Part shown: piece by piece, positions 17,562 through 40,376 of the stretch
Numbering within the stretch: the stretch's first letter is position 1
Layout: each line of letters begins with the position of its first letter
Source of the DNA: Flectobacillus major DSM 103
GTDB taxonomy: Bacteria; Bacteroidota; Bacteroidia; Cytophagales; Spirosomataceae
DNA length: 64,000 nucleotides
Assembly: GCF_000427405.1 (NCBI RefSeq)
Contig: NZ_ATXY01000005.1
Coordinates: 1 to 64,000, forward strand
Direction of reading: 5' to 3'
Position numbers and translations under genes: made by a program
The notes under the pieces: model-generated
What the model was told of the DNA's origin: nothing
Database searches by the model: none
The model's input: only the letters and a program-made list of their open reading frames with translations

Positions 17562-17572
17562 GCATTTCACTT

Positions 17573-22505: not shown

Positions 22506-22527
22506 CTGTAAGGCTAGCATTTTTGAT

Positions 22528-22648: not shown

Positions 22649-22760
22649 ATCAATTTTATATTTAAGACAATTTTAAACCTGCATACACTACCAATTCCGA
22701 ATTTTAGAATATTTTTGAATCCTATTTCATAACAAGGAGTTCGCACAATTAACATTTTTT

Positions 22761-22850: not shown

Positions 22851-23006
22851 ATCAATTTTATATTTAAAGGAATGATTATAAATATATAAATTCTAGTTTT
22901 GGAGGAAATTGCATTTCAATAACTTCCAAAAGAAACATTTAACCCATAACTCTGTCATCAAATAGCAAGCAGTAATTAACAGCCACAAACATATTTAATC
23001 TATAGA

Positions 23007-23040
23007 TTTGATATATTTATAAATTTATCAATTATATTTG
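23007..23040 (+). promoter_or_regulatory. Promoter of the susC3 operon
   Basis: TTTG (23007-23010), a 22-base spacer and TATATTTG (23033-23040) match the Bacteroidota promoter pattern. The predicted start near 23046 gives a leader of about 190 bases that includes the conserved element at 23098-23236. Confidence 0.6.
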
Positions 23041-23097
23041 TCCCATCAAAACTTTACGAATAAACAGCGGCTGATAAGTAATGTTGATTCGTAGAAC

Positions 23098-23236
23098 CTT
23101 ATTAAACGACAAAAGCCAATTTGGCTGCAACCAAATTGGCAAAAGTCTAAATAAAAACGTTCATCGCTAAATGACTCCGGCAGGTAAAGTTTTACCTGTC
23201 CAGATTTCCTATTTTACATTAAACCATTACAAAGTA
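23098..23236 (+). promoter_or_regulatory. Conserved structured RNA leader of susC3
   Basis: Second copy of the element at 4892-5034. CTTATT then AAACGA and an A-rich run lead into hairpin I (GCCAATTTGG 23115-23124 with 23131-23140, perfect 10 bp, loop CTGCAA). The kept block GTTCATCGCTAAATGACT (23159-23176) follows, then hairpin II (GG 23179-23180, CAGGTAAA, loop GT, TTTACCTG, bulged T, CC to 23201) and AACCATTACAAAGTA at 23222-23236 directly before ATG. Hairpin II is 8 bp here against 6 bp plus 3 in copy 1, with entirely different bases but the same GG...bulge...CC frame: this is covariation. A misleading in-frame ATG at 23171 lies inside the kept block. Confidence 0.65.
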
Positions 23237-26200: not shown

Positions 26201-26422
26201 ATTGCTTTGAGCTACAATATTCCCATTAAAAAAGGTGGATTATCACAATATATTTCGTCGGCCAAAATTTATGCACAAGCCTCTAATATCCTGACATTCA
26301 CCAAGTATACAGGTGCCGACCCAGAGATTTCAATCAACGGTAACTCTGTCAATTCGGGGAAAGACCAAAACGTACCAGCCAATGCTTCGGTATTTACTTT
26401 GGGCTTAAATGTGGGGTTCTAA
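23237..26422 (+). CDS. SusC/RagA TonB-linked outer membrane transporter 3
   Basis: This 1061-residue transporter has a signal peptide (1-23, ALYAQ), a carboxypeptidase-regulatory-like domain (NGRILDQRTKDPLIGASVQI), a plug ([40 protein letters not shown]) and a barrel ending GLNVGF. The front module and RNA leader match SusC1, whereas plug and barrel match SusC2, so the gene appears mosaic. I start at ATG 23237, which fits the signal peptide and the conserved AACCATTACAAAGTA context also seen before susC1; an in-frame ATG at 23171 lies in the leader and would add 22 residues ahead of the signal peptide. It pairs with susD3 18 bases downstream and is followed by an amidohydrolase and DoxX-like paralog C. 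Confidence 0.94.
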   Translation: MKKNNYLFIWICILLFPLALYAQSTQPTINAKLNGRILDQRTKDPLIGASVQIKGTTNGSTTNQEGAFYIQTGQRFPFILVVSSIGFKPKEITVESSPIVIDLEEDTKQLSEIVVTGYGSESKKAFTGSAVKVSASQLENRPAQSLDQLLGGQAAGVNIVQPSGALNNTPVFRIRGINSITSSVYPLIIVDGITVFTGSAGGSVGNNPLSDINPSDIESIDVLKDASAAAIYGSRAANGVVVITTKKGKKGKTKVNYDTWVSWSKPFNLPEILSAQDYVAIKNEARANAGLSQGFVLGKNADGSNIETNWYDVAYQTGVSQNHTLNISGANDATNYYVSVNYSKQNGILKTNTFDRKTARLNIEHKLHRSISIGTNFSFSNSLNAGPNSGAIGPNSVGASSGNSVNTQYIGLQPLARMTYILPPNVPVYNTDGTYNINLANGNIGYGPNSSALGVFNAYNLQTVLDLDKNTSENNTLLSSVFGEIELIKGLKFKTVYGINNFIVENKEFRNLQSGDGFATKGTATNSNTTYFRSSWTNTLTFNTTFSDVHNLKVLLGHEEIYRKVDGWGASRTGLSDPFFTSYQGGFTNITPSSTVQSENGLLSFFSSVSYDFNRKYLVSFNFRRDGLSALAAGNKWGNFGGGSAGWNISEESFFQQSSLYKYINALKIKASYGVVGNSSLSDYAALSQYSSSTYAGVPTLYFGQAGNAALRWESSKKTDIGLSVGILNNRFTLEADYYKNTIDDLILSAPQSLSQGIPGNSIAANVGSLYNEGIELGLTANIINTQKFQWNANFNIATLKNRVTSLGTGGDIYPTVLSTFGIQNITREGYSVGSIFAVPTLGINPANGNRIYLNANNQQVQYDALKRTFTTLDGATAPAIDNYRDGRIQGPSLPTYYGGLNNNFTYGNFDLAIGFIFSGGNKLYNGTKGTLSDQRYFNNGTFIKDRWTTPGQITDVPKLVWGDSFSGGFSSTNTAFVEDGSFIKLKNIALSYNIPIKKGGLSQYISSAKIYAQASNILTFTKYTGADPEISINGNSVNSGKDQNVPANASVFTLGLNVGF

Positions 26423-26440
26423 AAAAATAATCAGCTAAAA

Positions 26441-27910
26441 ATGGAAAATATCTTTAATCATAAAAATAGCTTTCGCCGTTCATTGCTTGTTTCGGTAAGC
26501 CTTCTTGGTTTGCTTTCAAGCTGTCGAGATAATATTCTGGACACAGTGCCTATCACAAGTATTTCGACAGAAGCGGCCTATAGTACGCCTGCCAAAATAC
26601 TGGCACAAGTCAACGGACTTTATTCTCAATTTGGTAGTCAAGCCTATTTTGGCGGTCGTCATATTATTTTTAATGAACAACGTGGCGACGAATTTAGCCA
26701 AAACGATGGTAATAACTCTACAGGTGCAAACGTCTGGAATCAGTCGATTACTTCATCGGGCGATTTTGTCAATGCCGTTTGGGGAGCAGCTTATACCACC
26801 ATCAACTCGGCCAATATTCTCATTGACAATTTGAGTACATCTACAGTTTTATCCGATGAATTACGCAAAAATTATATTGCCGAAGCTAAGTTTTTAAGAG
26901 CCTTTGCTTATTTCAGTTTGGTACAAACGTATGCAAAACCTTATCAACAAAATAGTGCTGCACCAGCGTTGCCATTGAGGCTAAAACCTGAAACATCGGG
27001 CGGAAACAATGACTTTGCTTTCAGCACAGTAGCCGAGGTTTATACCCAGATTTTGAAAGATTTGAACGAAGCAGAAATAGATTTACCTGTCACTTACGCA
27101 AGTTCCTTATTGGTAGCTTCAAGAGCTCATAAGGCAACCGCTATTGCCCTCAAAACAAGAGTGAATTTGGTAAAAGGCGACTATGCTGCCGTTGTCACTG
27201 AAGCCAAAAAAATAGTTTCTGATACGGCTCCATTTCAGTATGTATCAGGTACATTGACACATAAATTAGAGGCCAATATTGCTACTGTTTTTGGTGGGTC
27301 TTATGTCGGAAATGAACTTTTGCTTACTATTCCTTATATCAATGCCACCGAAGCTCCGGGCCTGCAAAGTGCCTTGGCTGCTAATTATTTAACGCCTGTT
27401 GTTTACCTTAATCCATCAGGAATTGTTGCCGACCCAGCTTTGGATGCGGCTACTTCAAACGATGCACGCAAAGGCTTAATTACTACCAATACCACAGGGC
27501 AGAAATTACTGAGAAAGTTCCCTAAAAATTCTGCTCCATTTAGCGACTATGTACCTATTATTCGCTACGCAGAAGTGTTGTTGAACTATGCAGAAGCGGC
27601 TGCTCAAAACAATGACTTGACTACTGCTACAGCCTTATTAAAGGCCGTTCGCAATCGCTCAGATGCTAATTATGTATTCTCGCAAGGGCTTGCATCAAAA
27701 GCTGAATTGGTAGAAACCATTCTCAATGAACGTAGAATAGAATTATTGGGCGAAGGTTTAAGAACCCCAGATTTATTGAGAAGAGTACAAAAGCTTCCTT
27801 CCAAAATAGGTAATGCAGGTGTTGCACCAGAGGTTTTACCAACAGCCAGCAACTATGTTTGGGCAATACCAAGTAATGAATTGGCTTATAATAAACTTGC
27901 TCCAAAATAA
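26441..27910 (+). CDS. SusD/RagB family lipoprotein 3
   Basis: The 489-residue product has a lipoprotein signal with lipobox LLSSC (Cys28). SusD motifs are KILAQVNGLYSQFGSQAYFG, KFLRAFAYFSLVQTYAKPY, VPIIRYAEVLLNYAEAAAQ and NERRIELLGEGLRTPDLLRR. It is a paralog of SusD2, with shared order HKATAIALKTRVNLVKGDYA against HKNTAIALKTRVYLNAGNYA. It would form the surface lid for SusC3. It lies in a tight run susC3-susD3-amidohydrolase-DoxX-like C with gaps of 18, 23 and 12 bases, clearly one operon. Confidence 0.93.
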   Translation: MENIFNHKNSFRRSLLVSVSLLGLLSSCRDNILDTVPITSISTEAAYSTPAKILAQVNGLYSQFGSQAYFGGRHIIFNEQRGDEFSQNDGNNSTGANVWNQSITSSGDFVNAVWGAAYTTINSANILIDNLSTSTVLSDELRKNYIAEAKFLRAFAYFSLVQTYAKPYQQNSAAPALPLRLKPETSGGNNDFAFSTVAEVYTQILKDLNEAEIDLPVTYASSLLVASRAHKATAIALKTRVNLVKGDYAAVVTEAKKIVSDTAPFQYVSGTLTHKLEANIATVFGGSYVGNELLLTIPYINATEAPGLQSALAANYLTPVVYLNPSGIVADPALDAATSNDARKGLITTNTTGQKLLRKFPKNSAPFSDYVPIIRYAEVLLNYAEAAAQNNDLTTATALLKAVRNRSDANYVFSQGLASKAELVETILNERRIELLGEGLRTPDLLRRVQKLPSKIGNAGVAPEVLPTASNYVWAIPSNELAYNKLAPK

Positions 27911-27933
27911 CATCGTATTCTATCTAATTTATC

Positions 27934-29643
27934 ATGAAAAAAACACTTTTGATATTATCATTACTTTGTGCAGAAACAACTGTTTTTGCACAAAGTAATA
28001 AGCAAGCCGATAAGATTTTTATCAATGGAAAAATCATTACGGTCGATGCCAAAAATACCATTGCTCAGGCTGTAGCCGTACAAAATGGCAAAATTTTGGC
28101 GGTTGGCAATAACAAACAAATCGAAAAGCTCAAAGGCAAAAATACCCAAATAGTAGATTTGGGAGGAAAAACGGTAACACCTGGGTTTATAGATGGGCAT
28201 AGCCATTTTATGAGCTTCGGAAGAGCCAATTTGGCCAACCTCAACCCACCTCCAGTCGGAAATATTCGTAAAATAGCTGATATAGTAGCAGAATTACAAA
28301 AATTTAAAGCTCAGAAAGGATTCAAAGATGGCGATTGGATTAGCGGTTTTGGCTACGATGTCGACCAGTTGGAGGAAAAACGCCACCCTCGCAAAGAGGA
28401 TTTCGACGCAGCTTTTCCCAATAACCCTGTAGTAATTACCCACGTGTCTGGACACATGTCGGTAGCTAATTCTGCTGCTTTAAAAGTAGCAGGTGTAACC
28501 GCCAATACGCCAGACCCCGAAGGAGGTATTATTGAACGCAAGGACAATTCAAATGAGCCTACGGGTTTATTCCAAGAAAGAGCCCAAGGGTTGGTACGGG
28601 TTAATCTGAGCGGAGCAAGCAAAGGAACATTGGACGAACGTTTGGCACAACTGAAAGAGCAACAGGCGTATTATGCCAGCTTTGGCGTAACTACAGCTCA
28701 GGATGGTAGTAGTAGCTTTGAGTCGTTGGAGCTACTTCGAGAAGCCTCAAAACGTGGTGAATTATTCATCGATATTGAATCATTACCAGCATATCCTATT
28801 GTAGATAAAGTATTAAACAACCCTGATTATGAGTATGGTGTATTAAAAAACCATTTTAAAATCAATGGTTTTAAGTTCTTTTCTGATGGATCGCCACAAG
28901 GTAAAACTGCATTTTTTGGCAAAGCGTATCTAACTAAAGTGCCGGGCTGTAACGATGCCATCTGTCGAGGGTTTCCTGTGGTTACACAAACCGAATTCAA
29001 TGAGGCTATTATTAAAGCTTTCAAAAACAATATCCAACCCTATGTACACTGTAATGGCGATGCTGCTATTGACATGTATATCACAGCCGTTGAAAATGCC
29101 AATAAACTACTGGAAGCCAGTAGTTTAAATCGTCGCCCTGTGGTAATTCACTCACAGTTTGTTCGCCCAGACCAACTGGATAAATACAAAGAATTAGGTT
29201 TTTTACCATCATTATTTAGTAATCACGCTTTCTTTTGGGGCGATGTTCACGAAACAAACTTGGGTTACGAGCGTGCCAAGTTTTTAAGTCCTTTAAAATC
29301 TTCAATCAAAAAAGGGATTATCGCTACCAACCATACCGACTTTGGGGTAACACCAATCAATCAATTGTTTTTATTGTGGACATCGGTAGAACGCAAATCT
29401 CGTTCGGGCAAAGTGATTGGCCCCGAAGAACGCCTAACACCTTTGGAAGGACTTAAAGCTATTACTATCAACGGTGCTTATGAGTACTTTGAAGAAAAAA
29501 CAAAGGGTTCTATCGAAAATGGTAAACTGGCTGATTTGGTAATACTCTCCGACGATATTCTCACGATTGAACCTTCAAAAATCAAAGAAGTAGAAGTATT
29601 AGAGACTATCAAAGAAGGAAAAACAGTGTATAAAAAGCTCTAA
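27934..29643 (+). CDS. Exported metal-dependent amidohydrolase (YtcJ/AepA-like)
   Basis: This 569-residue enzyme has a signal peptide (1-20, VFAQ), then the amidohydrolase-3 layout: beta-rich NGKIITVDAKNTIAQAVAV, VTPGFIDGHSHFMSFGRANL with the metal pair H89 and H91, later VIHSQFVRPDQLDKY and ATNHTDFGVTPINQ, and ITINGAYEYFEEKTKGSIE near the end. The family hydrolyses amide or carbamate-type C-N bonds; natural substrates are mostly unknown. Export to the periplasm and position directly after susD3 suggest that it processes what SusC3 imports, perhaps an N-acyl or amide compound. Four further genes on the same strand include an SsuD-like enzyme, which makes an amide-linked organosulfur ligand one possibility. 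That is an inference. Confidence 0.88.
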   Translation: MKKTLLILSLLCAETTVFAQSNKQADKIFINGKIITVDAKNTIAQAVAVQNGKILAVGNNKQIEKLKGKNTQIVDLGGKTVTPGFIDGHSHFMSFGRANLANLNPPPVGNIRKIADIVAELQKFKAQKGFKDGDWISGFGYDVDQLEEKRHPRKEDFDAAFPNNPVVITHVSGHMSVANSAALKVAGVTANTPDPEGGIIERKDNSNEPTGLFQERAQGLVRVNLSGASKGTLDERLAQLKEQQAYYASFGVTTAQDGSSSFESLELLREASKRGELFIDIESLPAYPIVDKVLNNPDYEYGVLKNHFKINGFKFFSDGSPQGKTAFFGKAYLTKVPGCNDAICRGFPVVTQTEFNEAIIKAFKNNIQPYVHCNGDAAIDMYITAVENANKLLEASSLNRRPVVIHSQFVRPDQLDKYKELGFLPSLFSNHAFFWGDVHETNLGYERAKFLSPLKSSIKKGIIATNHTDFGVTPINQLFLLWTSVERKSRSGKVIGPEERLTPLEGLKAITINGAYEYFEEKTKGSIENGKLADLVILSDDILTIEPSKIKEVEVLETIKEGKTVYKKL

Positions 29644-29655
29644 ATAGCATTAAAA

Positions 29656-30987
29656 ATGTCGAACGAATCTGTTCATATACCAGAAAATAGGATACGTTTA
29701 CAACGTATCCTACTAAGGGGGGGCTCTTTATTTGCATTGATTACCACAGTCCCTTTTTTACCCGATTTTTACCTGAGAGATTATAGCGAAAGTTTCCAAA
29801 CTAAATCGCATCCGTTCAGGATTATAGATGTAGTTAGCCAAAATAGTCCTTGGTTTTTCAATAATGCTGGCGGTAAAAACTACCTTGGTTGGTTAATTAC
29901 GCTATTGGTAAGTTTGGTTATTGGCTTCATTTGGAACGTATTAGACAAAAAGAACCGAAATGACAGTACGCTATCTTATTGGTTTTATGTGATAGTACGT
30001 TATGGGTTGGCTTTGCGGATGTCGTGGTTTGCTATTGCCAAAGTATTTCCTGTACAAATGCCTTTCCCAACCATTAGCCAACTCAATACCAATTTGGGAG
30101 AGTTTACACCTGGAAAGCTCTATTGGCTTACCACGGGCGTATCGCCCTTATTTGAGGTGTTTGCAGGAGTGTTTGAGCTAATCGCAACGGTATTGATTCT
30201 TTTTAGAAGAACTACCACGCTTGGGGCATTGATGATGGTGGCAATTTTAGTACCAATCTGGTTTGTCAATATTGGTTACGATGCTGGCGTAGAACTCACC
30301 AGTTTGCATATTCTTACTTTTGCCCTCATCTTGTTGGCAAAAGATGTAACCCATTTTTGGGATTTGCTGATTTTGCATAAGCCTTCGGTGATTCCTACTT
30401 TTTCGGCACCCACCTTTTCGGCAAAGTGGTTGACATCAACTCGTATCGTTCTAAAGTCGGCTTTTATTTTGGTTTTCTTGGTTTATCGTGGCGTTGAATA
30501 TGGCAAAGTGTATGCAGCAGAAAAAACCTTCAAACTACCGTTAACCGATGGTATTGAAGAGTTTAAGGGCTTGTATGATGTAGCAGAATTTAAGGTAAAT
30601 AATCAGCTTATTCCTTACAGTCCTATCGACACTACTCGTTGGCAAAATGTGGTTTTTGAAAAATTCAATACATTCAGTATCAAAGTAGCCAGCGAAACCA
30701 ACCTGAATACCGACAATAAAGTAAGAACAACCGAATATTACGGAAACGTTGGACGCTTGTATTATGGCTATGAAGCCGATACCGTAAAACATACCCTTTT
30801 GCTCAAAAACCGAGCTGATACTACCCGAAAAATTCGGCTGAATTATGAACATCCAAATGCCCAAACTTTTGTATTAAAAGGTGTACTCGAAAATAAGGAT
30901 TCTGTGTATGTGGTTCTCAAAAAAATCGAAAAGAAGTATCCATTAGTAGAGAAAAAAGTAAGTTTTTTCGGTAAAATAGATAGGTAA
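29656..30987 (+). CDS. DoxX-like integral membrane protein with C-terminal beta domain (paralog C)
   Basis: Third member (443 residues) of the family at 9530-12565. The membrane core reads LSYWFYVIVRYGLALRMSWF and FAGVFELIATVLILFRRTTT with the intramembrane Glu, and the C-terminal domain has YDVAEFKVNNQLIPYSPIDT, RWQNVVFEKFNT and LENKDSVYVVLKKIEKKY. Here the DoxX-like G-x-x-K helix is altered (LALRMSWFAIAKVFP), so any cofactor or quinone site may differ from paralogs A and B. It begins 12 bases after the amidohydrolase and closes the susCD3 operon. The recurrence of this protein behind two separate SusC/SusD pairs, but not behind pairs 2 or 4, argues for a functional link to the imported ligand. 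Activity unknown. Confidence 0.68.
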   Translation: MSNESVHIPENRIRLQRILLRGGSLFALITTVPFLPDFYLRDYSESFQTKSHPFRIIDVVSQNSPWFFNNAGGKNYLGWLITLLVSLVIGFIWNVLDKKNRNDSTLSYWFYVIVRYGLALRMSWFAIAKVFPVQMPFPTISQLNTNLGEFTPGKLYWLTTGVSPLFEVFAGVFELIATVLILFRRTTTLGALMMVAILVPIWFVNIGYDAGVELTSLHILTFALILLAKDVTHFWDLLILHKPSVIPTFSAPTFSAKWLTSTRIVLKSAFILVFLVYRGVEYGKVYAAEKTFKLPLTDGIEEFKGLYDVAEFKVNNQLIPYSPIDTTRWQNVVFEKFNTFSIKVASETNLNTDNKVRTTEYYGNVGRLYYGYEADTVKHTLLLKNRADTTRKIRLNYEHPNAQTFVLKGVLENKDSVYVVLKKIEKKYPLVEKKVSFFGKIDR

Positions 30988-31065
30988 TCAAGCAAATTTA
31001 ATTTTGATTAAACTTAATCATAAGTTACTGAAAATCAAAATACTAATTCGCAATTGACAATTAGA

Positions 31066-31222
31066 ACTGTACGAAGGATTAGTTTTATCTTTCAAATAAA
31101 ATTGCAGTAGTGGCAACCCTTGCGGTTGCCATGTTGAGTGTGGCAACTGCAAGAGTTGCCGCTACACCAAAAAATGCGAATAATAAGAACGCTTTTGAAC
31201 AAAAGAAAATCCTTCGTACAGT
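31066..31222. mobile_element. MITE-like element with 15-bp terminal inverted repeats enclosing a REP copy
   Basis: ACTGTACGAAGGATT at 31066-31080 is exactly complemented at 31208-31222. Inside lies a third copy of the GTAG...GGCAACCCTTGCGG inverted repeat (31107-31165). The 157-base unit has no coding capacity and fills the gap between the DoxX-like C gene and the SsuD-like gene. No target duplication is obvious at the edges, so it could also be a large hairpin terminator. Confidence 0.5.
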
Positions 31223-31258
31223 AATAATTTACAACTTTGTATTGACACTTAATAATAA

Positions 31259-32422
31259 ATGACTATTAAACGCATCAAAACAGCCGACATCCGAACCACC
31301 CAGCGTGTCGCTGAAATATCATGGTTCAATGATATTATTGGTGGTGATACCGAATATTTAGGTATTTTAGATAATACTCGTAGAAGTAATTTTGAGCATT
31401 GTCGTGACATTACCCTCGAAGCCGAAAAGCTCGGCTTTAGCAACATTTTATACCCAACGGCCTATACCGTTGGGCAAGATGTTTGGACAATCACTTCGGC
31501 ACTTGCCCCTTTAACAGAGAAAATAACGTTTTTGGCGGCAGTCAGAACAGGCGAGGTGCATCCACCAATGTTGGCAAGAGCGATTGCTTCGCTCGACCAC
31601 GCTTTAAAAGGTCGATTGATTCTTAATATTATCAATTCCGACTTGCCGGGTACTCGTGAAAACCCAGATTTTCGTTATCAGCGATGTACCGAAGTGATTG
31701 AAATTTTGAAACAAGGCTGGACACAAGACCGAATCCAACATAGAGGCGAAATTTATCAATTCGATATGCCTTCCGACCCCGTAAAACCCTACCAAAACGG
31801 TGGCCCGCTTTTATATTTTGGCGGAACGTCCGACGGTTCACGAGAGGTTTGTGCCAAACATTGCGATGTGTTTTTGATGTGGCCAGAATCGGAAGAAGCC
31901 ATGTACGCAACCATGCAAGACATGACCGCCAGAGCAGCAAAATATGGAAGAAAAATTGATTTTGGACTAAGAATACACGTAGTAGCCAGAGAAACGCAAG
32001 CAGAAGCAAGGGCTTATGCCAAAAAACTTATTTCAAAATTTGATGAAAAACGAGCAGCCGAAATCAGAGCAAGAGGCGAAGATTCACGCTCTTTGGGTGT
32101 GATTCGTCAAGATGAATTTAGAAAAACCTCGGATGATGAAGGCTATGCAGAAGAAATTCTCTGGACTACCATCGGCAAAGTATTTTCTGGTTGTGGAAGT
32201 GGATTGGTTGGTAGTGCCGACCAAATCGTAGCCAAGCTTAATCGCTATATGGATATGGGTTTTCGAGCTTTTGTCTTTTCGGGTTTTCCCTTGATTGAAG
32301 AAGCGAACTATTTTGCCAAATTGGTATTACCGCATTTACCCAATGTTTCGATGCCAAGATTGAATAATCGAATTCCTGAAGAAACACCTGTAACACCCCT
32401 AACAACAGCCGAATTGGTGTAA
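31259..32422 (+). CDS. LLM-class flavin monooxygenase, alkanesulfonate monooxygenase (SsuD)-like
   Basis: This 387-residue protein has the luciferase-like TIM-barrel of the SsuD group: ISWFNDIIGGDTEYLG at the N-terminus, EKLGFSNILYPTAYTVGQDVW, PLTEKITFLAAVRTGEVHPP, GRLILNIINSDLPGTRENPD, FGLRIHVVARETQAEARAYA, and GSGLVGSADQIVAKLNRYMD followed by FVFSGFPLIEEA. SsuD uses FMNH2 and O2 to cleave alkanesulfonates to an aldehyde plus sulfite in the cytoplasm. No flavin reductase (SsuE) and no SsuABC transporter are present in the window, so a reductase elsewhere and an unusual import route would be required. No signal peptide. It is preceded by a MITE-like element and followed by an APC permease on the same strand. 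Substrate could also be another LLM substrate such as a sulfone or dimethyl sulfide-type compound. Confidence 0.85.
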   Translation: MTIKRIKTADIRTTQRVAEISWFNDIIGGDTEYLGILDNTRRSNFEHCRDITLEAEKLGFSNILYPTAYTVGQDVWTITSALAPLTEKITFLAAVRTGEVHPPMLARAIASLDHALKGRLILNIINSDLPGTRENPDFRYQRCTEVIEILKQGWTQDRIQHRGEIYQFDMPSDPVKPYQNGGPLLYFGGTSDGSREVCAKHCDVFLMWPESEEAMYATMQDMTARAAKYGRKIDFGLRIHVVARETQAEARAYAKKLISKFDEKRAAEIRARGEDSRSLGVIRQDEFRKTSDDEGYAEEILWTTIGKVFSGCGSGLVGSADQIVAKLNRYMDMGFRAFVFSGFPLIEEANYFAKLVLPHLPNVSMPRLNNRIPEETPVTPLTTAELV

Positions 32423-32536
32423 TAATGACCATTTCAATTCATTGAAATACAATATATTACCTTACAAAGGTATATCCAAAACCAATTACGAGACAGCTCA
32501 AAAAGGGATATATTTTAGGACAAAAACACATTAAGA

Positions 32537-33955
32537 ATGTCTGAACACGAACAACCGACAGAGTTTAAAAGAGAATTAGGGTTAATTGATGCCGCTTTGC
32601 TTGCTGCAAGCGGCATGATTGGCTCAGGAATATTTATTGTTAGTGCCGATGTTGCCCGCAATGTTGGTTCGGCAGGCTGGCTCATTGTGGTGTGGGTAAT
32701 TGGTGGTTTTATGACCCTAACTGCTGCCGTAAGTTACGGCGAACTCAGCGGAATGTATCCTAAAGCTGGCGGACAATACGTTTACCTCAAAGAAGCTTAT
32801 GGAAGTTTGGTAGCTTTTGTCTATGGTTGGAGCCTTTTTACAGTTATCCAAACAGGCACTATTGCAGCCGTTTGCGTGTCATTTTTTAAGTTTTTGGCTT
32901 ACTTTTTCCCAATTTTCAGCGAAGATTTAGTGGCATTTAGCATCGGCGACTCCTTCAAGGTATCCCCAGCACAATTATCGTCGATAGTACTACTTTTTAT
33001 TTTGACATATCTTAATACACAAGGCGTTAAATTAGGAAAAATCGTTCAGAATATCTTCACAAGTACCAAACTCCTTAGTTTATTAGGACTAATACTTTTT
33101 GGATTTATTTACCTCAAACCCGAAATCTGGCAAGCCAACTGGACTAATCCTTTTCATTTACAAAAATTGACTAAAACAGGCGAATTTATACAATATGCCG
33201 ATACACCAGCACTTGGGGGAGCTATTGCTTCGGCTTTGGTAGGCACAGTTATTAGCTACGACGCATGGAATAATGTCACTTTTGTAGCTGGCGAAATCAA
33301 AAATCCCAAACGAAATATTGGCCTTAGTTTACTACTCGGCACAGCCGTTGTAACATTTATTTATGTTGCCCTCAATATCATGTTTACGGCCGTTTTGCCT
33401 ATCGAAGCACTCGGCACTCCCGAAAAAGACCGTGTAGGTATTGTAGCAGCACAGGCAATTTTTGGAGCAAACGGCACAGCCGTCATAGCCATATTGATTC
33501 TAATCGCTTCTTTTGGTTGTGCCAATGGAATGATTTTGGCGGGTGCAAGGGTTTATTATAGTATGGCCAAAGATGGTCTATTTTTCAAAAAAACAGGCAA
33601 CTTAAACAAAAATTCTGTACCCGAATATGCCCTTTGGTTTCAGTTTGTAGTGGCAGTTATATTAAGTTTGAGCGGTCGTTATGGCGATTTGTTAGATATG
33701 ATTTCATTTGTTGTCGTTATATTTTATGTATTAACTATTGCGGCTATCTATATTCTAAGAATCAAACAGCCCAATCAGGAACGCCCTTATAAAGCATTTG
33801 GCTATCCTTTTCTTCCTGCCATCTACATTATCATGGGTTTGGCATTTTGTGTATTGTTGATTATTTACAAACCTACTTACACTTGGCCAGGGCTAATCAT
33901 CGCAGGCTTAGGTATTCCAGTGTATTTCTTAACCAAGAATATCAATAAAGTATAG
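32537..33955 (+). CDS. APC superfamily amino acid permease
   Basis: The 472-residue protein has about 12 membrane segments and the APC signatures GLIDAALLAASGMIGSGIFI (TM1, unwound glycine helix GSGIF), YGELSGMYPKAGGQYVYLKE (TM2-3 loop) and AWNNVTFVAGEIKNPKRNIG (TM6-loop). It would carry amino acids or analogues across the inner membrane. It begins 115 bases after the SsuD-like gene, with a weak -7-like TATATTTTAG at about 32505, and is closed by a strong terminator at 33975-34019. If co-expressed with the SsuD-like enzyme it might import an amino acid-like sulfonate such as taurine or cysteate, but nothing in the sequence fixes the substrate. Confidence 0.9.
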   Translation: MSEHEQPTEFKRELGLIDAALLAASGMIGSGIFIVSADVARNVGSAGWLIVVWVIGGFMTLTAAVSYGELSGMYPKAGGQYVYLKEAYGSLVAFVYGWSLFTVIQTGTIAAVCVSFFKFLAYFFPIFSEDLVAFSIGDSFKVSPAQLSSIVLLFILTYLNTQGVKLGKIVQNIFTSTKLLSLLGLILFGFIYLKPEIWQANWTNPFHLQKLTKTGEFIQYADTPALGGAIASALVGTVISYDAWNNVTFVAGEIKNPKRNIGLSLLLGTAVVTFIYVALNIMFTAVLPIEALGTPEKDRVGIVAAQAIFGANGTAVIAILILIASFGCANGMILAGARVYYSMAKDGLFFKKTGNLNKNSVPEYALWFQFVVAVILSLSGRYGDLLDMISFVVVIFYVLTIAAIYILRIKQPNQERPYKAFGYPFLPAIYIIMGLAFCVLLIIYKPTYTWPGLIIAGLGIPVYFLTKNINKV

Positions 33956-33974
33956 TAATCAAAAGCATTGTACT

Positions 33975-34019
33975 TTTCATAAAAACGGCAATAAATTACC
34001 TATTTCCGTTTTTATGAAA
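33975..34019 (+). terminator. Terminator hairpin after the APC permease
   Basis: TTTCATAAAAACGG (33975-33988) and CCGTTTTTATGAAA (34006-34019) form a perfect 14-bp stem, 19 bases after the stop codon. The 17-base loop is long and the T run is inside the stem, but position and stability support a terminator role. Confidence 0.65.
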
Positions 34020-34310
34020 TATTTAGCATATAAAATTTATAGATTATATAGATTTAAAATCTATTTTTGCAATTCCAAATCATTCTCAAACTTATGCTTG
34101 AATAAGTCCTTGAGATAAAACAACGATTATACAGTTAAGCAAAAAGAAGTATTTAAAGGCAGCAAGTCATGAAACCTTATCATTTCAATGATTCCTTTTT
34201 AAGCCTAAATCACTAAATATTAGACCATTAAAACTAATAATTCATTGCTATTGTGTAAAATATTTGTTCAACAGAACAATACAGACTATTCATCCACATA
34301 TTAAAACACT
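34020..34310 (+). promoter_or_regulatory. Promoter and leader of the cyanophycinase-like/SoxCD genes
   Basis: A -7 box TATTTTTG lies at 34062-34069; no clear -33 element. It predicts a leader of about 240 bases. A 15-codon frame beginning ATG at 34168 lies inside the leader but has no supporting feature. Otherwise I see no gene. Confidence 0.35.
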
Positions 34311-35213
34311 ATGAAAAAGAAACATCTCTTCCTTACTTTTTTTACCTTATTAAGTATTCACTTAGCCTTGGGCCAAATACCAATTAAAGTCAATGAAAAG
34401 TCACCAACCCGTCATGGGCCCGAAAAAGGCACATTGATTATTATAGGTGGCGGAACGGTTACACCCGAAATATGGAACAAGTTTGTAGAATTAGCTGGCG
34501 GAAAAGAAAAGGCTAAATTGGTAGTAGTAACAGCCGCAGCTGGCGATTCGGCAGCATTAAGTCTATCGGCAGTAGAGTCATTAAAGAAAAATACTGGAGT
34601 AACCAAGGTAACTTTATTACATACCAAAAACCTAAAAGAAGCCAATAGCGAAGCATTTATAGCTCCACTTCGTGAAGCTACTGGCGTATATTTTATCGGA
34701 GGTCGCCAATGGCGAATTGCTGATTCGTACTTGAACACCCTTACTCATCAAGCTTTTCAGGAGGTGCTAGAACGAGGGGGAGTTATTGCAGGGTCGTCGG
34801 CAGGAGCAAGTATTCAAGGGTCATTTCTTTGGCGTGGCGATACAAAAGGCCCTCATATTCTGGTAGGAGACCATACTCAGGGCTTGGGCTTCTTAAAAAA
34901 TTCGGCAATCGACCAGCATCTGCTTCGCCGAAATCGTCAATTTGATTTGGTAGATTTTATCAAACACTCTCCAGAATTAATTGGTATTGGCTTAGATGAA
35001 TCGACCGCAGTAATTGTTCAGAAAGATATTCTGGAAGTTCTGGGTAAATCATACGTAGCCATTTATGACTATAATACCATTATTGGCAATGGAGAAAAAC
35101 ATACCGTAAACCAACAGGAAGTAAATACCGCCTCAAATGGTTCGTTCTTTTTTTTGAGCAATGGCCAAAAGTACGATTTACAAAACCGAAAAGTAATAAA
35201 AACCAATGAGTGA
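34311..35213 (+). CDS. Exported cyanophycinase-like serine hydrolase (peptidase S51)
   Basis: The 300-residue protein has a signal peptide (1-21, ALGQ) and the S51 cyanophycinase layout: GTLIIIGGGTVTPEIWNKF, VYFIGGRQWR (129-135), the nucleophile elbow GVIAGSSAGAS with Ser163, DQHLLRRNRQFDLVDF and GIGLDESTAVIV. Cyanophycinases cleave beta-Asp-Arg dipeptides from cyanophycin; in bacteria that do not make the polymer the exported forms probably act on isoaspartyl peptides or related compounds. It starts a plus-strand group that continues with the cytochrome c and SoxC-like genes, but the 143-base gap leaves operon membership open. There is no cyanophycin synthetase in the window. Confidence 0.87.
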   Translation: MKKKHLFLTFFTLLSIHLALGQIPIKVNEKSPTRHGPEKGTLIIIGGGTVTPEIWNKFVELAGGKEKAKLVVVTAAAGDSAALSLSAVESLKKNTGVTKVTLLHTKNLKEANSEAFIAPLREATGVYFIGGRQWRIADSYLNTLTHQAFQEVLERGGVIAGSSAGASIQGSFLWRGDTKGPHILVGDHTQGLGFLKNSAIDQHLLRRNRQFDLVDFIKHSPELIGIGLDESTAVIVQKDILEVLGKSYVAIYDYNTIIGNGEKHTVNQQEVNTASNGSFFFLSNGQKYDLQNRKVIKTNE

Positions 35214-35356
35214 GCTGTGAAGTAGTGAATGAAATTTTGGTTCCTCAAATATTTACTTGAACTAATAGCCCAATACAAAAGTTTTTGGTAGCAATCTATA
35301 AACAAGAACACTCCATTAACCCACAACTCACTAAATCACTCAATTATTAGACAAAA

Positions 35357-35986
35357 ATGTACAAAAAGCAATACATATTAGGTTTAGGCAGCTTATTTAT
35401 TGCTATAACCACCTTACAAGCTTGTTATCAGGCAGTTAGTAAAGAACAAGGTATTTCAGTTGGCCCTAATATTCGTATCTCGAAAAAACAAAGTCTTTTA
35501 TCAGATACCCTTCCACCCTCATTTGGGTTTGGTAGACAAGCTACCCAAGCCGAAATCGCCCGATTAGATATAGATGTCCGTCCTGATGGAAAAGGATTAC
35601 CAGCAGGAAATGGTATTGCTTCAAAAGGAAAAGTCATTTTTGAAACCAAATGCGTGGCGTGTCATGGTGTTGGAGGCATTGGAGGAATCAACGGTTCTTT
35701 GGTAACCAACAAAAAAGCTACAGATAAAAGAAAAGAAAAAACCATTGGCAATTATTGGCCTTATGCTACTACGGTTTTTGATTATATCCGTCGAGCCATG
35801 CCCTTCAATCAGCCTGGTTCATTGAGCAACGAAGAAGTGTATAACTTAACCGCTTATTTATTGCACGCCAACGAAATTATTGATGACAAAACCGTAATCA
35901 ATGCCCAAACACTACCCAAAGTAGAAATGCCAGCAAAAAATTTATTTGTACCTGATGACCGCAAAGGAGGGCCAGAAATCAAATGA
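35357..35986 (+). CDS. SoxD/SorB-like c-type cytochrome lipoprotein
   Basis: The 209-residue product has a lipoprotein-type signal (TLQAC, Cys23), so the cytochrome is probably membrane-tethered in the periplasm. A single heme c site is CVACH (C99, C102, H103), with Met148 in RRAMPFNQPG as the likely sixth ligand. The sequence FGFGRQATQAEIARLDIDVR with DGKGLPAGNG is characteristic of the cytochrome partner of SoxC-type sulfite dehydrogenases. It would accept electrons from the molybdenum subunit and pass them to the respiratory chain. The stop codon overlaps the start of the SoxC-like gene by 4 bases (ATGA), which implies translational coupling. Typical SoxD proteins can carry two hemes; only one is present here, closer to SorB. 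Confidence 0.88.
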   Translation: MYKKQYILGLGSLFIAITTLQACYQAVSKEQGISVGPNIRISKKQSLLSDTLPPSFGFGRQATQAEIARLDIDVRPDGKGLPAGNGIASKGKVIFETKCVACHGVGGIGGINGSLVTNKKATDKRKEKTIGNYWPYATTVFDYIRRAMPFNQPGSLSNEEVYNLTAYLLHANEIIDDKTVINAQTLPKVEMPAKNLFVPDDRKGGPEIK

Positions 35987-37236
35987 AAATTCATAAAATC
36001 ATAGAAATAACACAGCAGTTTCCTCAAAAATTATCTCGCCGCAAACTGCTAGGCGGAGCAGCCACTGCCGCCGTTGCAATTGTTCAAACTACCAATGGAC
36101 AAGCCGTTCAGAAGGGTATTTCTCAAAATGCAATTGACGACGACCCAACCAAGAAATTTGGTACACCTGCGGGCGAAATCGGAACTCGGTCTCCTTTTGT
36201 GAAGTCTGTAAAAAAACCTTCTGATATTTCTTCGAGGTCGCCTTTACAAGATTTTTACGGCATAATCACTCCCTCAGACCTCCATTTTGAACGCCATCAT
36301 GCAGGTGTTCCCGAAATAAACCCTACCAAACACGAATTACTGATTCATGGCTTAGTAGAAAAACCGATGGTTTTTACCTTGGCCGATTTAAAGCGTTTTC
36401 CCTCGGTTTCTCGTATTACATTTCTAGAATGTTCAGGAAATTTTAGAGGTGGAAAAGAAAACCTTACACCTCAAGAAATCTGTGGACTAACTAGCCAAAG
36501 TGAATGGACGGGGGTAAAACTTTCAACCTTGTTTAGAGAAGTGGGCGTAAAACCCAATGCCTCATGGTTTTTGGCAGAAGGTGGCGATGCCGCCGTCATG
36601 ACCCGCAGTATTCCTGTACAAAAAGGCTGGGACGATGCCATTATCGCTTATGCCCAAAATGGCGAACCTCTTCGGCCAGAACAAGGCTTTCCGATTAGGC
36701 TATTTAATCCTGGTTGGGAAGGCAATACCAGTGTAAAGTGGCTTCGTAGGTTAGAATTATCAGATGCTCCTTATTATACCCGAGAAGAAACCTCTAAATA
36801 CACTGAGCCTATCAAAGATGGAAAATTTAGAATTTTCAGTTTTGATATTGATGCTCGTTCTATCATTACTTTTCCTTCTTTTCCACAGCAAGTAGAAAAA
36901 GGTTGGATAGAAATTCGTGGTTTGGCGTGGTCTGGACGAGGTAAGGTTGTAAAAGTAGAAGTTAGTACCGATGCAGGAAAAAGCTGGCAAATTGCCCAAC
37001 TCAACGAACCGATTTTGGATAAAGCTCATGTACAATTTAGGTATTTGTGGCAATGGCGAGGCGATGAAACCGAAATCATGAGTCGAGTAACTGACGAAAC
37101 AGGCTATACGCAACCAACACTCAAACAGCTATTTGATGCTCGTGGCAGCGAAGGAGGCTACCACATGAACCCTATTACGGCTTGGCAAATCAAAAAAGAT
37201 GGACGAGTATTATTCAAACCCGAAACTCCTCGATAG
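35983..37236 (+). CDS. SoxC/sulfite oxidase family molybdenum sulfite dehydrogenase
   Basis: This 417-residue enzyme begins with a twin-arginine-like leader (LSRRKLLGGAATAAVAIVQ, RR at 19-20), expected because the molybdenum cofactor is inserted before export. The sulfite oxidase domain shows HFERHHAGVPEINP, the cofactor-binding cysteine C150 in RITFLECSGN, LFREVGVKPNASWFLAEG, and FNPGWEGNTSVKWLRRLEL. The C-terminal dimerisation domain has RGLAWSGRGKVVKVEVSTD. It oxidises sulfite (or sulfur-bound intermediates in Sox systems) to sulfate in the periplasm and passes electrons to the overlapping cytochrome. No soxXAYZB genes are in the window, so a stand-alone sulfite oxidation role is more likely than a full Sox pathway. 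It could detoxify sulfite made by the SsuD-like enzyme. Confidence 0.92.
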   Translation: MKIHKIIEITQQFPQKLSRRKLLGGAATAAVAIVQTTNGQAVQKGISQNAIDDDPTKKFGTPAGEIGTRSPFVKSVKKPSDISSRSPLQDFYGIITPSDLHFERHHAGVPEINPTKHELLIHGLVEKPMVFTLADLKRFPSVSRITFLECSGNFRGGKENLTPQEICGLTSQSEWTGVKLSTLFREVGVKPNASWFLAEGGDAAVMTRSIPVQKGWDDAIIAYAQNGEPLRPEQGFPIRLFNPGWEGNTSVKWLRRLELSDAPYYTREETSKYTEPIKDGKFRIFSFDIDARSIITFPSFPQQVEKGWIEIRGLAWSGRGKVVKVEVSTDAGKSWQIAQLNEPILDKAHVQFRYLWQWRGDETEIMSRVTDETGYTQPTLKQLFDARGSEGGYHMNPITAWQIKKDGRVLFKPETPR

Positions 37237-37406
37237 GTCGCCAAACAAATGTATCAACGATTATTCCCTTGTAATTAGGTTACTTAACCACAAAATTATG
37301 GGGTATTGCTAAGACTCCATAAGCAGATAAATCTATCCTTAAATATTACTTGACAAAACTCTTTTATAGCTTAATCGCTTAAAATAGTTGGCAAATTTGA
37401 AATAAT

Positions 37407-38834
37407 ATGGCAAAACATGAATACGATGCAATTGTTGTGGGTTCTGGCCCCAACGGATTGGCGGCAGCCATTTTTTTACAACAAAAAGGGCTTTCTGTAC
37501 TCATTGTTGAAGGGAAAAAAACAATTGGAGGGGGCCTCCGAACAGCCGAATTAACGTTATCAGGTTTCAAACATGATATTTGTTCGGCTATTCACCCATT
37601 AGCAGCGGCATCGCCCTTTTTCCAGTCTTTGCCTCTCGAAAAATATGGCCTAAATTTCATCAAACCCAATATTGCAGCCGCCCACCCGCTCGACGATGGT
37701 ACGTCGGTTATTTTGTCGGAGTCGATTGAGCAAACTGCTAGCTACTTGGGTATAGACCAACAGCATTATCTCAAGCTCATAGCTCCTATTGTACAGCAAT
37801 GGGATAGCCTTTTGCCCGAACTACTAGCTCCTTTGCATTTTCCTAAAAACCCATTTCAATTAGCCAATTTTGGCATAAATGCCTTATTGCCAGCCAATTT
37901 ACTAGCCAACAAATTTGATACCCAAGAAGCAAAAGCCCTGTGGGCAGGTATGGCAGCTCATTCGATTCAGCCCCTGAGCAACCTTACTACCTCTGCAATA
38001 GGACTTGTACTCATGACAGCAGGACATAAAAATGGATGGCCTATTCCTCAAGGTGGTTCGCAGTCGTTGGCTGATGCTCTGGCTGCTTATTTTATTGCTA
38101 TTGGAGGGCGTATCGAAACCGATTTTTGGGTAAATTCTCTTCAGCAATTGCCTTCGGCCAAAGCTATTTTATTTGATATTACGCCAAAGCAAATTTTACA
38201 AATTGCAGGACATACTTTTTCTAATTTGTATAAATGGCAACTTGAAAAATATCGTTATGGTATGGGTGTATTTAAGCTCGATTGGGCATTAGACAGCCCT
38301 ATTCCGTTTACTTCCTATAAAGCTCGTGAAGCTGGAACGGTACATATAGGCAATACACTTGCCGAAATAGCCGCCTCAGAGCTATCGACCTCGCAGGGGA
38401 TTCATCCCGAAAAACCCTTTGTTTTATTGGCCCAACAAAGTGTTTTTGACAACACCCGTGCCCCCAAAGGCAAGCATGTAGCTTGGGGGTACTGTCATGT
38501 ACCTAATGGCTCGACCAAAGACATGACCAATGCTATTGAAAAACAAGTAGAGCGGTTTGCCCCTGGCTTTCGTGATACCATTCTAGCAAGACATACCTTT
38601 AATACAATAGAGCTAGAGGAATATAACCCCAATTATATTGGGGGCGATATCAACGGAGGAATTATTGATTTAGGCCAGTTGTTTACCCGACCAGCCCTCA
38701 GGTATTCTCCTTATCGAACCTCTACCAAAGGCTTATATATATGCTCGTCGTCGACTCCTCCTGGTGGCGGGGTACATGGTATGTGTGGTTATCATGCAGC
38801 ACAACGAGCTTGGAAAGATATATTTGAAAAATAG
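37407..38834 (+). CDS. FAD-dependent oxidoreductase (phytoene desaturase/PYROXD2-like)
   Basis: The 475-residue protein has an N-terminal FAD-binding Rossmann motif, DAIVVGSGPNGLAAAIFLQQ with GxGxxG at about 12-17, the second dinucleotide contact LIVEGKKTIGGGLRT, and the C-terminal FAD signature region LYICSSSTPPGGGVHGMCGY. This fits the crtI/PYROXD2 group of flavin oxidoreductases; the true substrate is unknown. It has no signal peptide and no carotenoid genes are nearby. A 170-base gap from the SoxC-like gene contains no clear promoter, so it may be read from the same transcript. Confidence 0.85.
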   Translation: MAKHEYDAIVVGSGPNGLAAAIFLQQKGLSVLIVEGKKTIGGGLRTAELTLSGFKHDICSAIHPLAAASPFFQSLPLEKYGLNFIKPNIAAAHPLDDGTSVILSESIEQTASYLGIDQQHYLKLIAPIVQQWDSLLPELLAPLHFPKNPFQLANFGINALLPANLLANKFDTQEAKALWAGMAAHSIQPLSNLTTSAIGLVLMTAGHKNGWPIPQGGSQSLADALAAYFIAIGGRIETDFWVNSLQQLPSAKAILFDITPKQILQIAGHTFSNLYKWQLEKYRYGMGVFKLDWALDSPIPFTSYKAREAGTVHIGNTLAEIAASELSTSQGIHPEKPFVLLAQQSVFDNTRAPKGKHVAWGYCHVPNGSTKDMTNAIEKQVERFAPGFRDTILARHTFNTIELEEYNPNYIGGDINGGIIDLGQLFTRPALRYSPYRTSTKGLYICSSSTPPGGGVHGMCGYHAAQRAWKDIFEK

Positions 38835-38933
38835 AAACGTGCTTATTTAAGTATCAATGTAAAATTGTGAATTGTTAATTAGAATACTAATTTTCAGCAA
38901 CTTACAATACACTTTGATTGAGTTTAATTACTT

Positions 38934-40376
38934 ATGAAATATCATTTACAAAAATATATTCCACTTATTCTTGGCCCTCTTTGCTTTGTTGGTTTGGTCT
39001 ATTTGCCTATCATTCATTTAGACGAAAAGATCGTTAAAGTTATTGGTATTACTTCGTGGATGCTTATTTGGTGGATTTCGGAAGTTGTGGCTTTGCCCGT
39101 AACGGCTTTTTTACCTGTAGTACTTTTTCCTGCATTAGGTATTTTAGATTTGCCCACTACTTCTGCCAATTACACCAATCCTACGGTATTACTTTTTTTA
39201 TCTGGATTTGTCTTTGCTTTGAGCATAGAAAAACACCGTTTGCACGAACGAATCGCCTTGCATATTATTCATTGGGTAGGTACGTCTATCCAGAAAATTG
39301 TATTGGGCTTTATGCTTGCCACGGCTTTTATCAGTATGTGGGTCAATAATACCGCCACTACGCTACTGATGTTTCCGATTGCCAACTCGGTATTGAGTTT
39401 GCTGCAAGAAAGTTTTGTAGCACAAAAACAGCAGGAGGCATTCAACAAATTATCGAAAAGCCTTTTGCTTGGATTAGCCTTTGGTGCTTGTATTGGAGGC
39501 ATAGCTACACCTATTGGAACGCCCACCAATGCTGTGTTGATTGCCTATTTTAAAGATAATTTTCAAACAGACATTGCTTTTTTAGCATGGTTTGCCATTG
39601 GTTTTCCTTTAGCTATTGTAATGCTTTCGTTTGCCTATTTTGTACTTGTCAAATGGCTTTTTGTTATAGAAATTGACGATTTACCTTCAGCAAAGCAAAT
39701 TGTAGAAGGTAAAATAGCTCATTTAGGAGCAATTACATATCAGGAATATGCTGTTAGTGGTGTCTTTTTGCTTACTACATTTACATGGATTTTTAGGGTA
39801 TTTCTTATCAAAATACCTGCTCTTGCTTTCCTAAACGACACCATTATTGGCATGGCAGGAGCTTTGCTTTTGTTTATTATTCCTAATCCTACTGAAAAAG
39901 ACTCCTTTATTTTTGAATGGAAAAATATGGAAAAACTTCCTTGGGGAATTTTATTTATGATTGGCGGTGGGCTAGCCTTAGCCAAAACACTCGAAACCTC
40001 TGGCTTGGTACAGTTGATTGGAAGCAGTATCAAAAATCTGGGTATTAGCCACTTTGCTTTGCTTTTAGCCATTGTTGTTTTAGTAACGCTATTATTAAAA
40101 ATTATGATTGCCAATACCGCTTTGGCCACAATACTTGTGCCAATGGTAGCTGGTATTGCAGTAGCTTCGGGTATTGAACCTATTTTGTTGGCTGCACCTA
40201 CCACTTTTGCGGCAAGTTTTGCCTTTATCTTACCGATGTCCACACCGCCCAATGCCATTGTTTTAAGTACTGGATTTGTACATGTAAAAGACATGATAAA
40301 GGCTGGTTCATGGATTGCTATTTTCGGCTTTTTGCTTCTGATAAGTGTATACAAATGCTATATTTTTATGATATAG
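38934..40376 (+). CDS. SLC13/DASS family sodium:anion symporter
   Basis: This 480-residue membrane protein has the two-fold repeated DASS pattern: the first SNT-type motif MWVNNTATTLLMFPIA, GIATPIGTPTNAVLIAYFKD, and in the second half MIANTALATILVPMVAG and FILPMSTPPNAIVLSTGFVH. The early ITSWMLIWWISEVVALPVTA is the typical N-terminal signature. DASS carriers move sulfate, dicarboxylates or tricarboxylates with sodium. Position close to SoxCD-like genes is compatible with sulfate handling, but dicarboxylate transport is at least equally likely from sequence alone. The gene ends a plus-strand run; the next gene is convergent. Confidence 0.9.
   Translation: MKYHLQKYIPLILGPLCFVGLVYLPIIHLDEKIVKVIGITSWMLIWWISEVVALPVTAFLPVVLFPALGILDLPTTSANYTNPTVLLFLSGFVFALSIEKHRLHERIALHIIHWVGTSIQKIVLGFMLATAFISMWVNNTATTLLMFPIANSVLSLLQESFVAQKQQEAFNKLSKSLLLGLAFGACIGGIATPIGTPTNAVLIAYFKDNFQTDIAFLAWFAIGFPLAIVMLSFAYFVLVKWLFVIEIDDLPSAKQIVEGKIAHLGAITYQEYAVSGVFLLTTFTWIFRVFLIKIPALAFLNDTIIGMAGALLLFIIPNPTEKDSFIFEWKNMEKLPWGILFMIGGGLALAKTLETSGLVQLIGSSIKNLGISHFALLLAIVVLVTLLLKIMIANTALATILVPMVAGIAVASGIEPILLAAPTTFAASFAFILPMSTPPNAIVLSTGFVHVKDMIKAGSWIAIFGFLLLISVYKCYIFMI

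Follow-up and report, generated by a model that had tools for sequence, protein, structure and literature searches.

Does the block of same-strand genes at the start of a Flectobacillus major DSM 103 contig (NZ_ATXY01000005.1; genome 6.22 Mb) encode a way of using organosulfonates, and which of its genes belong together? We analyzed positions 1-64,000 of this contig, hereafter the window, in which a first-pass annotation had proposed a sulfonate-to-sulfate route spread over 31259-40376. An open reading frame (ORF) check recovered the genes named in that interval, each in its place and on the + strand, and all ORFs of at least 120 residues between 557 and 40376 lie on this strand except three that overlap longer genes. 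At the level of sequence, the window combines recognizable gene families, a conserved five-gene cassette that in this genome sits inside an older SoxC operon, and a partial association of the cassette with other sulfur genes. We consider it reasonably likely that the window holds a composite organosulfonate-utilization island.

The cassette has the order SusC3-SusD3-amidohydrolase-monooxygenase-APC permease (23171-33955), and its conservation was assessed in two samples. The family set comprised 222 genomes (G numbers), including our own, of which 12 carry the close form of the monooxygenase, termed clade I (at least 74% identity; own genome included, G096 as a fragment); 10 of the 11 clade I relatives were fetched for gene order, with G096 left out. 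The named-genome set comprised 80 loci kept from 91 relatives (L numbers), 26 of them clade I with flanks that reach at most 10 kb, and families of neighbors were assigned from scanned representatives of their clusters. Seven of the named clade I records are also in the family set (e.g. L052 = G120), such that the two counts overlap; G102, G194 and G203 are not among the 26. We found the same five-gene order in 10/10 fetched relatives (the amidohydrolase of G203, split between fetched stretches, was placed by a separate search) and the complete cassette in 23/26 named clade I loci. SusC3 was present in 23/26, SusD3 in 24/26 and the amidohydrolase in 25/26, which bears out the expectation that SusCD-type uptake genes and a likely sulfite-forming monooxygenase form one unit. 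The exceptions were L072, which is cut by a contig end, and L068 and L077, which lack SusC3 and SusD3, L077 having another SusCD pair after the permease. The APC permease, earlier suggested as a candidate transporter, gained in standing as a constant neighbor that follows the monooxygenase in 26/26 loci (with a short ORF between in L052), and in L053 the amidohydrolase and monooxygenase touch and the permease starts within 5 bases.

The amidohydrolase and the monooxygenase matched perfectly in their distribution: at E <= 1e-120, the hydrolase occurred in 12/12 family genomes with the clade I monooxygenase and in 0/210 others (Fisher 4.5e-20, a value that ignores kinship). This hydrolase, which we take to be YtcJ-like, has invariant H89, H91, H372, H406 and D469 in 17 rows, that is, an HxH motif with further metal-ligand-type residues. 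Attempts to derive a substrate from its structure were abandoned, as 3icj and 3igh, which match best, are uncharacterised and the remainder are generic amidohydrolases; matches of the permease were likewise generic amino-acid transporters only. Named genomes with the cassette include those of Flavobacterium, Runella and Pedobacter. In the monooxygenase tree the 26 named clade I loci and the window formed one clade (support 98/98), and ten Flavobacterium rows were nested among Spirosomataceae rows, which fits transfer of the cassette; it thus appears to move laterally.

The monooxygenase (31259-32422) is the sole PF00296 match in the genome. It had been annotated as SsuD-like, of which the luciferase-family membership and a likely sulfite-forming activity stand. 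Identity with SsuD is ruled out by its score against the SsuD model TIGR03565 (249.5 bits, short of the cut-off of 518.2) and by its nearest solved structures. It is 50% identical to 7olf over 373 residues and 32% identical to E. coli SsuD. The AlphaFold model (mean predicted local distance difference test score of 90) was closest to 7oh2 (Z 51.0, root-mean-square deviation 1.5 over 355 residues) and 7olf (Z 49.9), with weaker matches to MsuD (Z 42.6) and SsuD (1m41, Z 38.6); the entry titles of 7oh2 and 7olf describe monooxygenases for oxidative desulfurization of sulfoquinovose (SQ). By resemblance in sequence and predicted fold, the enzyme is thus of SMOC type and not SsuD. A residue comparison across 80 rows (the window and 79 loci) showed that N123, Y140, W208, R238 and H240 are kept in common with SsuD and SMOC. 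Some match to the monooxygenase was found in 57/222 family genomes. The flavin reductase SsuE, earlier listed as a missing step, need not be sought in the window, as five FMN_red-family genes score over their cut-offs elsewhere in the genome; SQ clusters can likewise be without SsuE, according to the consulted portion of PMC9594981. The view that uptake is not SsuABC-based held, with the own genome giving one weak match to SsuA (40.9 vs 163.5 bits; 13/14 control genomes matched, 5 of them over the cut-off). Separately, the monooxygenases of eight cyanobacteria (Brasilonema, Scytonema, Tolypothrix and relatives; L106, L109, L110, L112, L113, L117, L119, L120) form one clade nested in Bacteroidota rows and were likely acquired by lateral transfer. 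A 598-residue neighbor in these loci was considered as an SSF symporter; the copy scanned, from L110, is HflX, leaving no known transporter partner there.

How, then, is the cassette related to sulfite oxidation? The SoxC of the window, whose closest solved chain is 2xts, has been assigned together with its cytochrome to a SoxCD-like pair. SoxC itself scored over the curated cut-off and the gene of a c-type cytochrome overlaps it by 4 bases, but this cytochrome has one CxxCH, whereas the SoxD partner in the Sox system is diheme. SoxC orthologues (at least 66% identity) occurred in 72/222 family genomes and in 12/12 clade I genomes (Fisher 7e-7). We compared 29 SoxC-bearing stretches, 9 fetched earlier and 20 selected among the 60 genomes that have SoxC but no clade I enzyme. 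The usual order was SusC1-SusD1-hyp447-hyp555-cytochrome c-SoxC-FAD oxidoreductase, followed in some stretches by S51 or by YeiH-type, DASS or TauE carriers. The cytochrome c was present in 28/29, SusD1 in 21/29, SusC1 in 20/29, the FAD oxidoreductase in 18/29 and the S51 peptidase in 7/29, and hyp555 lay within 1.5 kb of SoxC in 50/73 SoxC orthologue matches. A SusC2-SusD2-TPR-DUF1684 module stood between hyp555 and cytochrome c-SoxC in five stretches (L161, L162, L172, L174, L175; TPR not called in L162).

In the window, parts of this older operon flank the cassette on either side. The own genome shares with G120 and G102 a co-directional arrangement in which hyp555 precedes the cassette and cytochrome c-SoxC follows it; in G194 and G203, which have hyp555 at another location, the cassette immediately precedes cytochrome c-SoxC. 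Cytochrome c-SoxC directly follows the permease in G102, G194 and G203 and is separated from it by one gene in the window and G120, such that SoxC adjoins the cassette in 5/12 family genomes. The cassette was also found ~10 kb after SoxC in G161 and G162 and 27 kb before hyp555 in G155, and G110 (L166) has a single row of SusC1-SusD1-hyp447-hyp555-cytochrome c-SoxC-YeiH-type carrier-APC-monooxygenase. Across the 12 clade I genomes, SoxC and the monooxygenase were at most 11 kb apart in seven, 30 kb in one and 83 kb in one, and on different contigs in three. The SLC13-type (DASS) carrier and the TauE/SafE protein at 3353 both exist as annotated; relatives of both occur near SoxC in some genomes. 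A TauE relative (72%) lies 3.7 kb after SoxC in G155 (L164) and another (50%) is on the other strand in G171 (L165), DASS follows SoxC also in G120 (L032) and G214 (L173), and a PF03601/YeiH-type carrier has a comparable place in L033, L166, L167 and L170 (PF03601 over the cut-off for L033 and L166; TIGR00698 under it). hyp447, hyp555 and the paralogue at 29656 are related to one another; they are membrane proteins whose C-terminal part looks soluble by eye, and they account for three such matches in the own genome; hyp555 had no solved relative at E up to 1 and no NCBIfam match. These DoxX-like proteins are possible electron-transfer partners of sulfite oxidation. SoxZ was matched in 0/222 genomes, but also in 0/14 control genomes, and was not used as evidence.

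Related monooxygenases were found in further sulfur contexts. Among 39 loci with clade II enzymes (54-65% identity), 6 have a SorA-like enzyme before the monooxygenase with a one-CxxCH protein between. The SorA-like enzyme is ~30% identical to the SoxC of the window, and the one scanned (L098) reached 237 bits against the SorA model, under its cut-off of 600. In the gap between the two genes, L098 (8767-9909) and L114 (8788-9933) encode a CxxCH domain fused to an alpha/beta hydrolase domain (by Pfam for L114). An SSF-type symporter lies within seven ORFs of the clade II enzyme in 21/39 loci, and each of the fourteen Hymenobacter-type loci in which the enzyme ORF was called has another APC permease directly before the enzyme; in L084 (Hymenobacter) the enzyme is present, but the filter kept a longer antisense ORF and the locus is outside this count and the tree.

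All ten Flavobacterium loci have a family 2A encapsulin shell and a cysteine desulfurase cargo after the cassette (shell of L064, 527 vs cut-off 380; desulfurase of L062, 905 vs 800), with a serine acetyltransferase in 8/10 and a cysteine-synthase-type PALP protein in 5/10; families were assigned by scanning one or two members per cluster. The own genome has a CysE-desulfurase-encapsulin set just past the window, at ~75.96-79.77 kb of contig C5 (L159 12960-16774), with its encapsulin (C5:78871-79599) 46 kb from the monooxygenase and two more sulfatases and a rhodanese near the set. Encapsulin was present in 8/12 clade I genomes compared to 31/210 others (p = 1.4e-4, ignoring kinship), and within 50 kb of the monooxygenase in 5/12. 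In the consulted portions of the literature, serine acetyltransferases and rhodaneses are over-represented in encapsulin-desulfurase operons (PMC8346489), and the family 2A encapsulin of Synechococcus is induced by sulfur starvation, its knockout has no growth defect and its physiological role is described as still open (PMC8049743).

All five sulfatases annotated in the window were confirmed by Pfam; as members of the route they were set aside, since they lie on the opposite strand and membership is unsupported. Sulfatase-like genes occur in the flanks of 10/26 named clade I loci, nine of them Flavobacterium, where a sulfatase precedes SusC3 in 9/10 loci and may have a role.

Taken together, these gene families and contexts suggest a route whose reactions, transport directions and substrate class we infer from sequence, with compartments assigned from N-termini (by eye) and family types. 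SusC3 and SusD3 would carry a sulfonated compound across the outer membrane, a periplasmic amidohydrolase would cleave it, most likely at an amide, and the APC permease would import the freed amino-sulfonate-like part. The SMOC-type monooxygenase would then cut the C-S bond in the cytoplasm and release sulfite, drawing reduced flavin mononucleotide (FMNH2) from a flavin reductase encoded elsewhere. The sulfite could be reduced and incorporated into cysteine, or exported by DASS or TauE (a YeiH-type carrier in relatives) and then oxidized to sulfate in the periplasm by SoxC and cytochrome c; nitrite/sulfite reductase family genes are present in the own genome, such that both fates, assimilation and oxidation, are possible. 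Both the hydrolase and the carrier would suit an amide-bearing amino-sulfonate. In its most specific form, the proposal is of a SusCD-based sulfonate locus new for Bacteroidota, in which an amide-linked amino-sulfonate (N-acyl-taurine-like or sulfonolipid-derived) would undergo periplasmic deacylation, APC import and desulfonation by an enzyme of SMOC type whose pocket is altered, SoxC and cytochrome c would oxidize the exported sulfite, different SusCD modules would be interchangeable on one sulfite-oxidation operon, and the Flavobacterium cassette would feed an encapsulin sulfur store. We put this forward tentatively, as possible but short of probable.

Several observations weigh against the proposal. 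The histidine of the SGYPH motif, present in SsuD and SMOC, is replaced by leucine in 80/80 rows and its tyrosine by phenylalanine in clade I only (SGYPH to SGFPL), so that activity on any sulfonate cannot be assumed. The family of the hydrolase is the sole pointer to an amide, its nearest solved structures being uncharacterised. Within the family, SoxC predates the cassette, with 60/72 SoxC genomes lacking the clade I enzyme, and is on another contig in G133, G070 and G096 and 83 kb away in G171; a place for SoxC in the route, as first proposed, agrees with the adjoining family genomes but not with the named cassette loci, where it is in the flanks of 1/26 (L052 = G120). DASS and TauE, in the flanks of 1/26 and 0/26, cannot be kept as constant parts. 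Encapsulin had no match in 4/12 clade I genomes, the flanks of 15/26 named clade I loci contain no SoxC and no encapsulin set, and 33/39 clade II loci are without a SorA-like neighbor in flanks that are in some cases shortened by contig ends.

Part of this pattern would be expected if the cassette served sulfur scavenging alone, for cysteine synthesis under sulfate limitation, and the adjoining SoxC belonged to a separate sulfite operon, which the cassette joined in some lineages only. The Flavobacterium context of CysE, PALP, encapsulin and desulfurase agrees with such a role, as do the nitrite/sulfite reductase family gene of the own genome, the enrichment of encapsulin in clade I genomes and the scarcity of SoxC in named flanks; however, the co-directional place of the cassette between hyp555 and cytochrome c-SoxC in three genomes and directly before cytochrome c-SoxC in two more, as well as the pairing of 6/39 clade II enzymes with another sulfite dehydrogenase, argue for a tie to sulfite oxidation, and we regard scavenging alone as rather unlikely, if plausible. 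The characterised enzymes nearest to the monooxygenase raise another option, an SQ route of the sulfo-SMO/ASMO kind in Bacteroidota, in which the monooxygenase would act on SQ and other genes would handle its glycosides. The genome has 13 aldo-keto reductases that could include a 6-dehydroglucose reductase, but no aldo-keto reductase, SQ-type ABC transporter or GH31-type glycosidase was found among the window proteins scanned or among the (partially) annotated neighbor clusters of the 26 clade I loci, the carrier and hydrolase are instead an APC permease and an amidohydrolase, and both motif residues differ from SMOC, which makes this route unlikely.

It is also conceivable that the substrate is something other than a sulfonate, such as an amine or sulfone, and that the sulfur neighbors are coincidental. 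Luciferase-family enzymes are diverse, an amidohydrolase and an APC permease suit an amine or amide, the active site is changed, and over half of the clade I loci have no SoxC or encapsulin set nearby; the several kinds of sulfur-gene context, and the fact that the nearest structures (SMOC, MsuD and SsuD) are all sulfonate monooxygenases, render this explanation improbable in our judgment. The M19 dipeptidase and LigB dioxygenase between core parts, which accompany the cassette in only 3/26 named loci (and stand before SusC3 in the own genome, G120/L052 and two Runella genomes), could suggest that unrelated genes on one strand had been grouped by chance in the first-pass annotation. Given the perfect phyletic match between amidohydrolase and monooxygenase and the location of SoxC within 11 kb of the monooxygenase in 7/12 genomes, chance grouping is highly improbable.

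The proposed organosulfonate island resembles known systems in its enzymes but differs from them in uptake. With the sulfo-SMO/ASMO pathways (SmoC/SquD; Agrobacterium, Novosphingobium) it shares an SMOC-type FMNH2-dependent enzyme predicted to cleave C-S bonds with sulfite as putative product. It differs in having SusCD, an amidohydrolase and an APC permease in a Bacteroidota host; the scanned window proteins include neither a SmoB/SquF reductase nor a glycosidase or SQ binding protein. The SMOC pathway is mainly found in alpha- and beta-proteobacteria according to the consulted portion of a 2026 review (PMC12890257); that of PMC13372026 (2026) adds Actinomycetota and Spirochaetota and names Bacteroidetes in a reference title only. 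The SsuEADCB alkanesulfonate system has an enzyme of the same superfamily and likely the same chemistry, but here the SsuD cut-off is not reached and uptake would occur by SusCD and an APC permease. Likeness to SoxCD/SorAB lies in the SoxC and the overlapping cytochrome gene, the cytochrome being monoheme unlike that of SoxCD. Family 2A encapsulin-cysteine desulfurase (SrpI) operons follow the Flavobacterium cassette and have a counterpart past the window in the own genome, and 'sulfonate' has 0 occurrences in the main text of both PMC8049743 and PMC8346489, neither of which mentions a link to such a cassette. We found no literature describing this cassette, joining SusCD or Bacteroidota with an SMOC-type enzyme, or encapsulin with sulfonate, in a search whose scope left out most subscription journals.

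Glycans and peptides are the main known cargoes of SusCD systems. Adjacent SusC and SusD genes are shared with glycan polysaccharide utilization loci, but carbohydrate-active enzymes were not found beside the pair: the proteins scanned in 20413-40376 matched no family of glycoside hydrolases or lyases. The enzyme types are known, and the uptake architecture is, within the literature searched, new. If correct, a conserved SusCD cassette devoted to sulfonates would add a large Bacteroidota group to the organisms that degrade organosulfonates and provide a testable sulfur source for the family 2A encapsulin. Both the conservation of the cassette and the sulfur genes around it justify testing at the bench.

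Table 1 Genes of the window, with predicted roles and family evidence
Feature	Position	Strand	Evidence
TauE/SafE, candidate sulfite/sulfate exporter (not constant)	3353-4267	+	PF01925 134 bits
SusC1-SusD1 pair, first part of older SoxC operon	5035-9477	+	Pfam SusC/SusD
hyp447 and hyp555, two DoxX-like membrane proteins	9530-12565	+	no family over cut-off
SusC2-SusD2-TPR-DUF1684 module	12874-20331	+	Pfam
M19 dipeptidase and LigB-type dioxygenase	20413-22505	+	4,5-DOPA dioxygenase model 297 vs cut-off 233
SusC3, outer-membrane TonB-dependent transporter of the cassette	23171-26422	+	Pfam plug and carboxypeptidase-regulatory domains
SusD3, surface lipoprotein of the cassette	26441-27910	+	Pfam SusD
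Amidohydro_3 hydrolase, probably periplasmic	27934-29643	+	PF07969 E=1e-102; signal-peptide-like N-terminus (by eye)
Third DoxX-like paralogue	29656-30987	+	DoxX E=0.036, under cut-off
SMOC-type FMNH2-dependent monooxygenase, putative sulfite release from sulfonate	31259-32422	+	PF00296 183 bits
APC amino-acid-type permease, putative inner-membrane importer	32537-33955	+	PF13520 188 bits
S51 cyanophycinase-like peptidase	34311-35213	+	TIGR02069 130.9 vs cut-off 126.6
Monoheme c-type cytochrome, lipoprotein-like N-terminus; putative SoxC electron acceptor	35357-35986	+	PF00034; one CxxCH
SoxC-type molybdenum sulfite dehydrogenase, twin-arginine-like N-terminus	35983-37236	+	TIGR04555 483 vs cut-off 420
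FAD-dependent oxidoreductase (CrtO-like)	37407-38834	+	CrtO model of NCBIfam 135 vs cut-off 1000
DASS/SLC13 anion carrier, candidate sulfite/sulfate exporter (not constant)	38934-40376	+	TIGR00785 258 vs 198.6
Five sulfatases	after 45 kb	-	Pfam

Of the features in Table 1, the amidohydrolase, the DoxX-like genes, the FAD oxidoreductase and the S51 peptidase were absent from the first-pass annotation. Its four SusC/SusD pairs were recovered by Pfam as three pairs and a fourth SusD; the fourth SusC ORF (61564-63957) had no Pfam match, and its N-terminal part would fall beyond the window end. No Rfam match at the gathering score, to a riboswitch or any other known RNA, was obtained in the loci searched (the window, L056, L054 and L066). 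Among fetched loci, the third DoxX-like paralogue was inside the cassette of the own genome and G120 (97%) only. Between this gene and the monooxygenase lies an imperfect inverted repeat (31045-31243) with 36-base arms, 78% complementary, and a 127-base spacer, whose 14-base core occurs within the window in the two arms only; it resembles a small mobile element that lies within the cassette.

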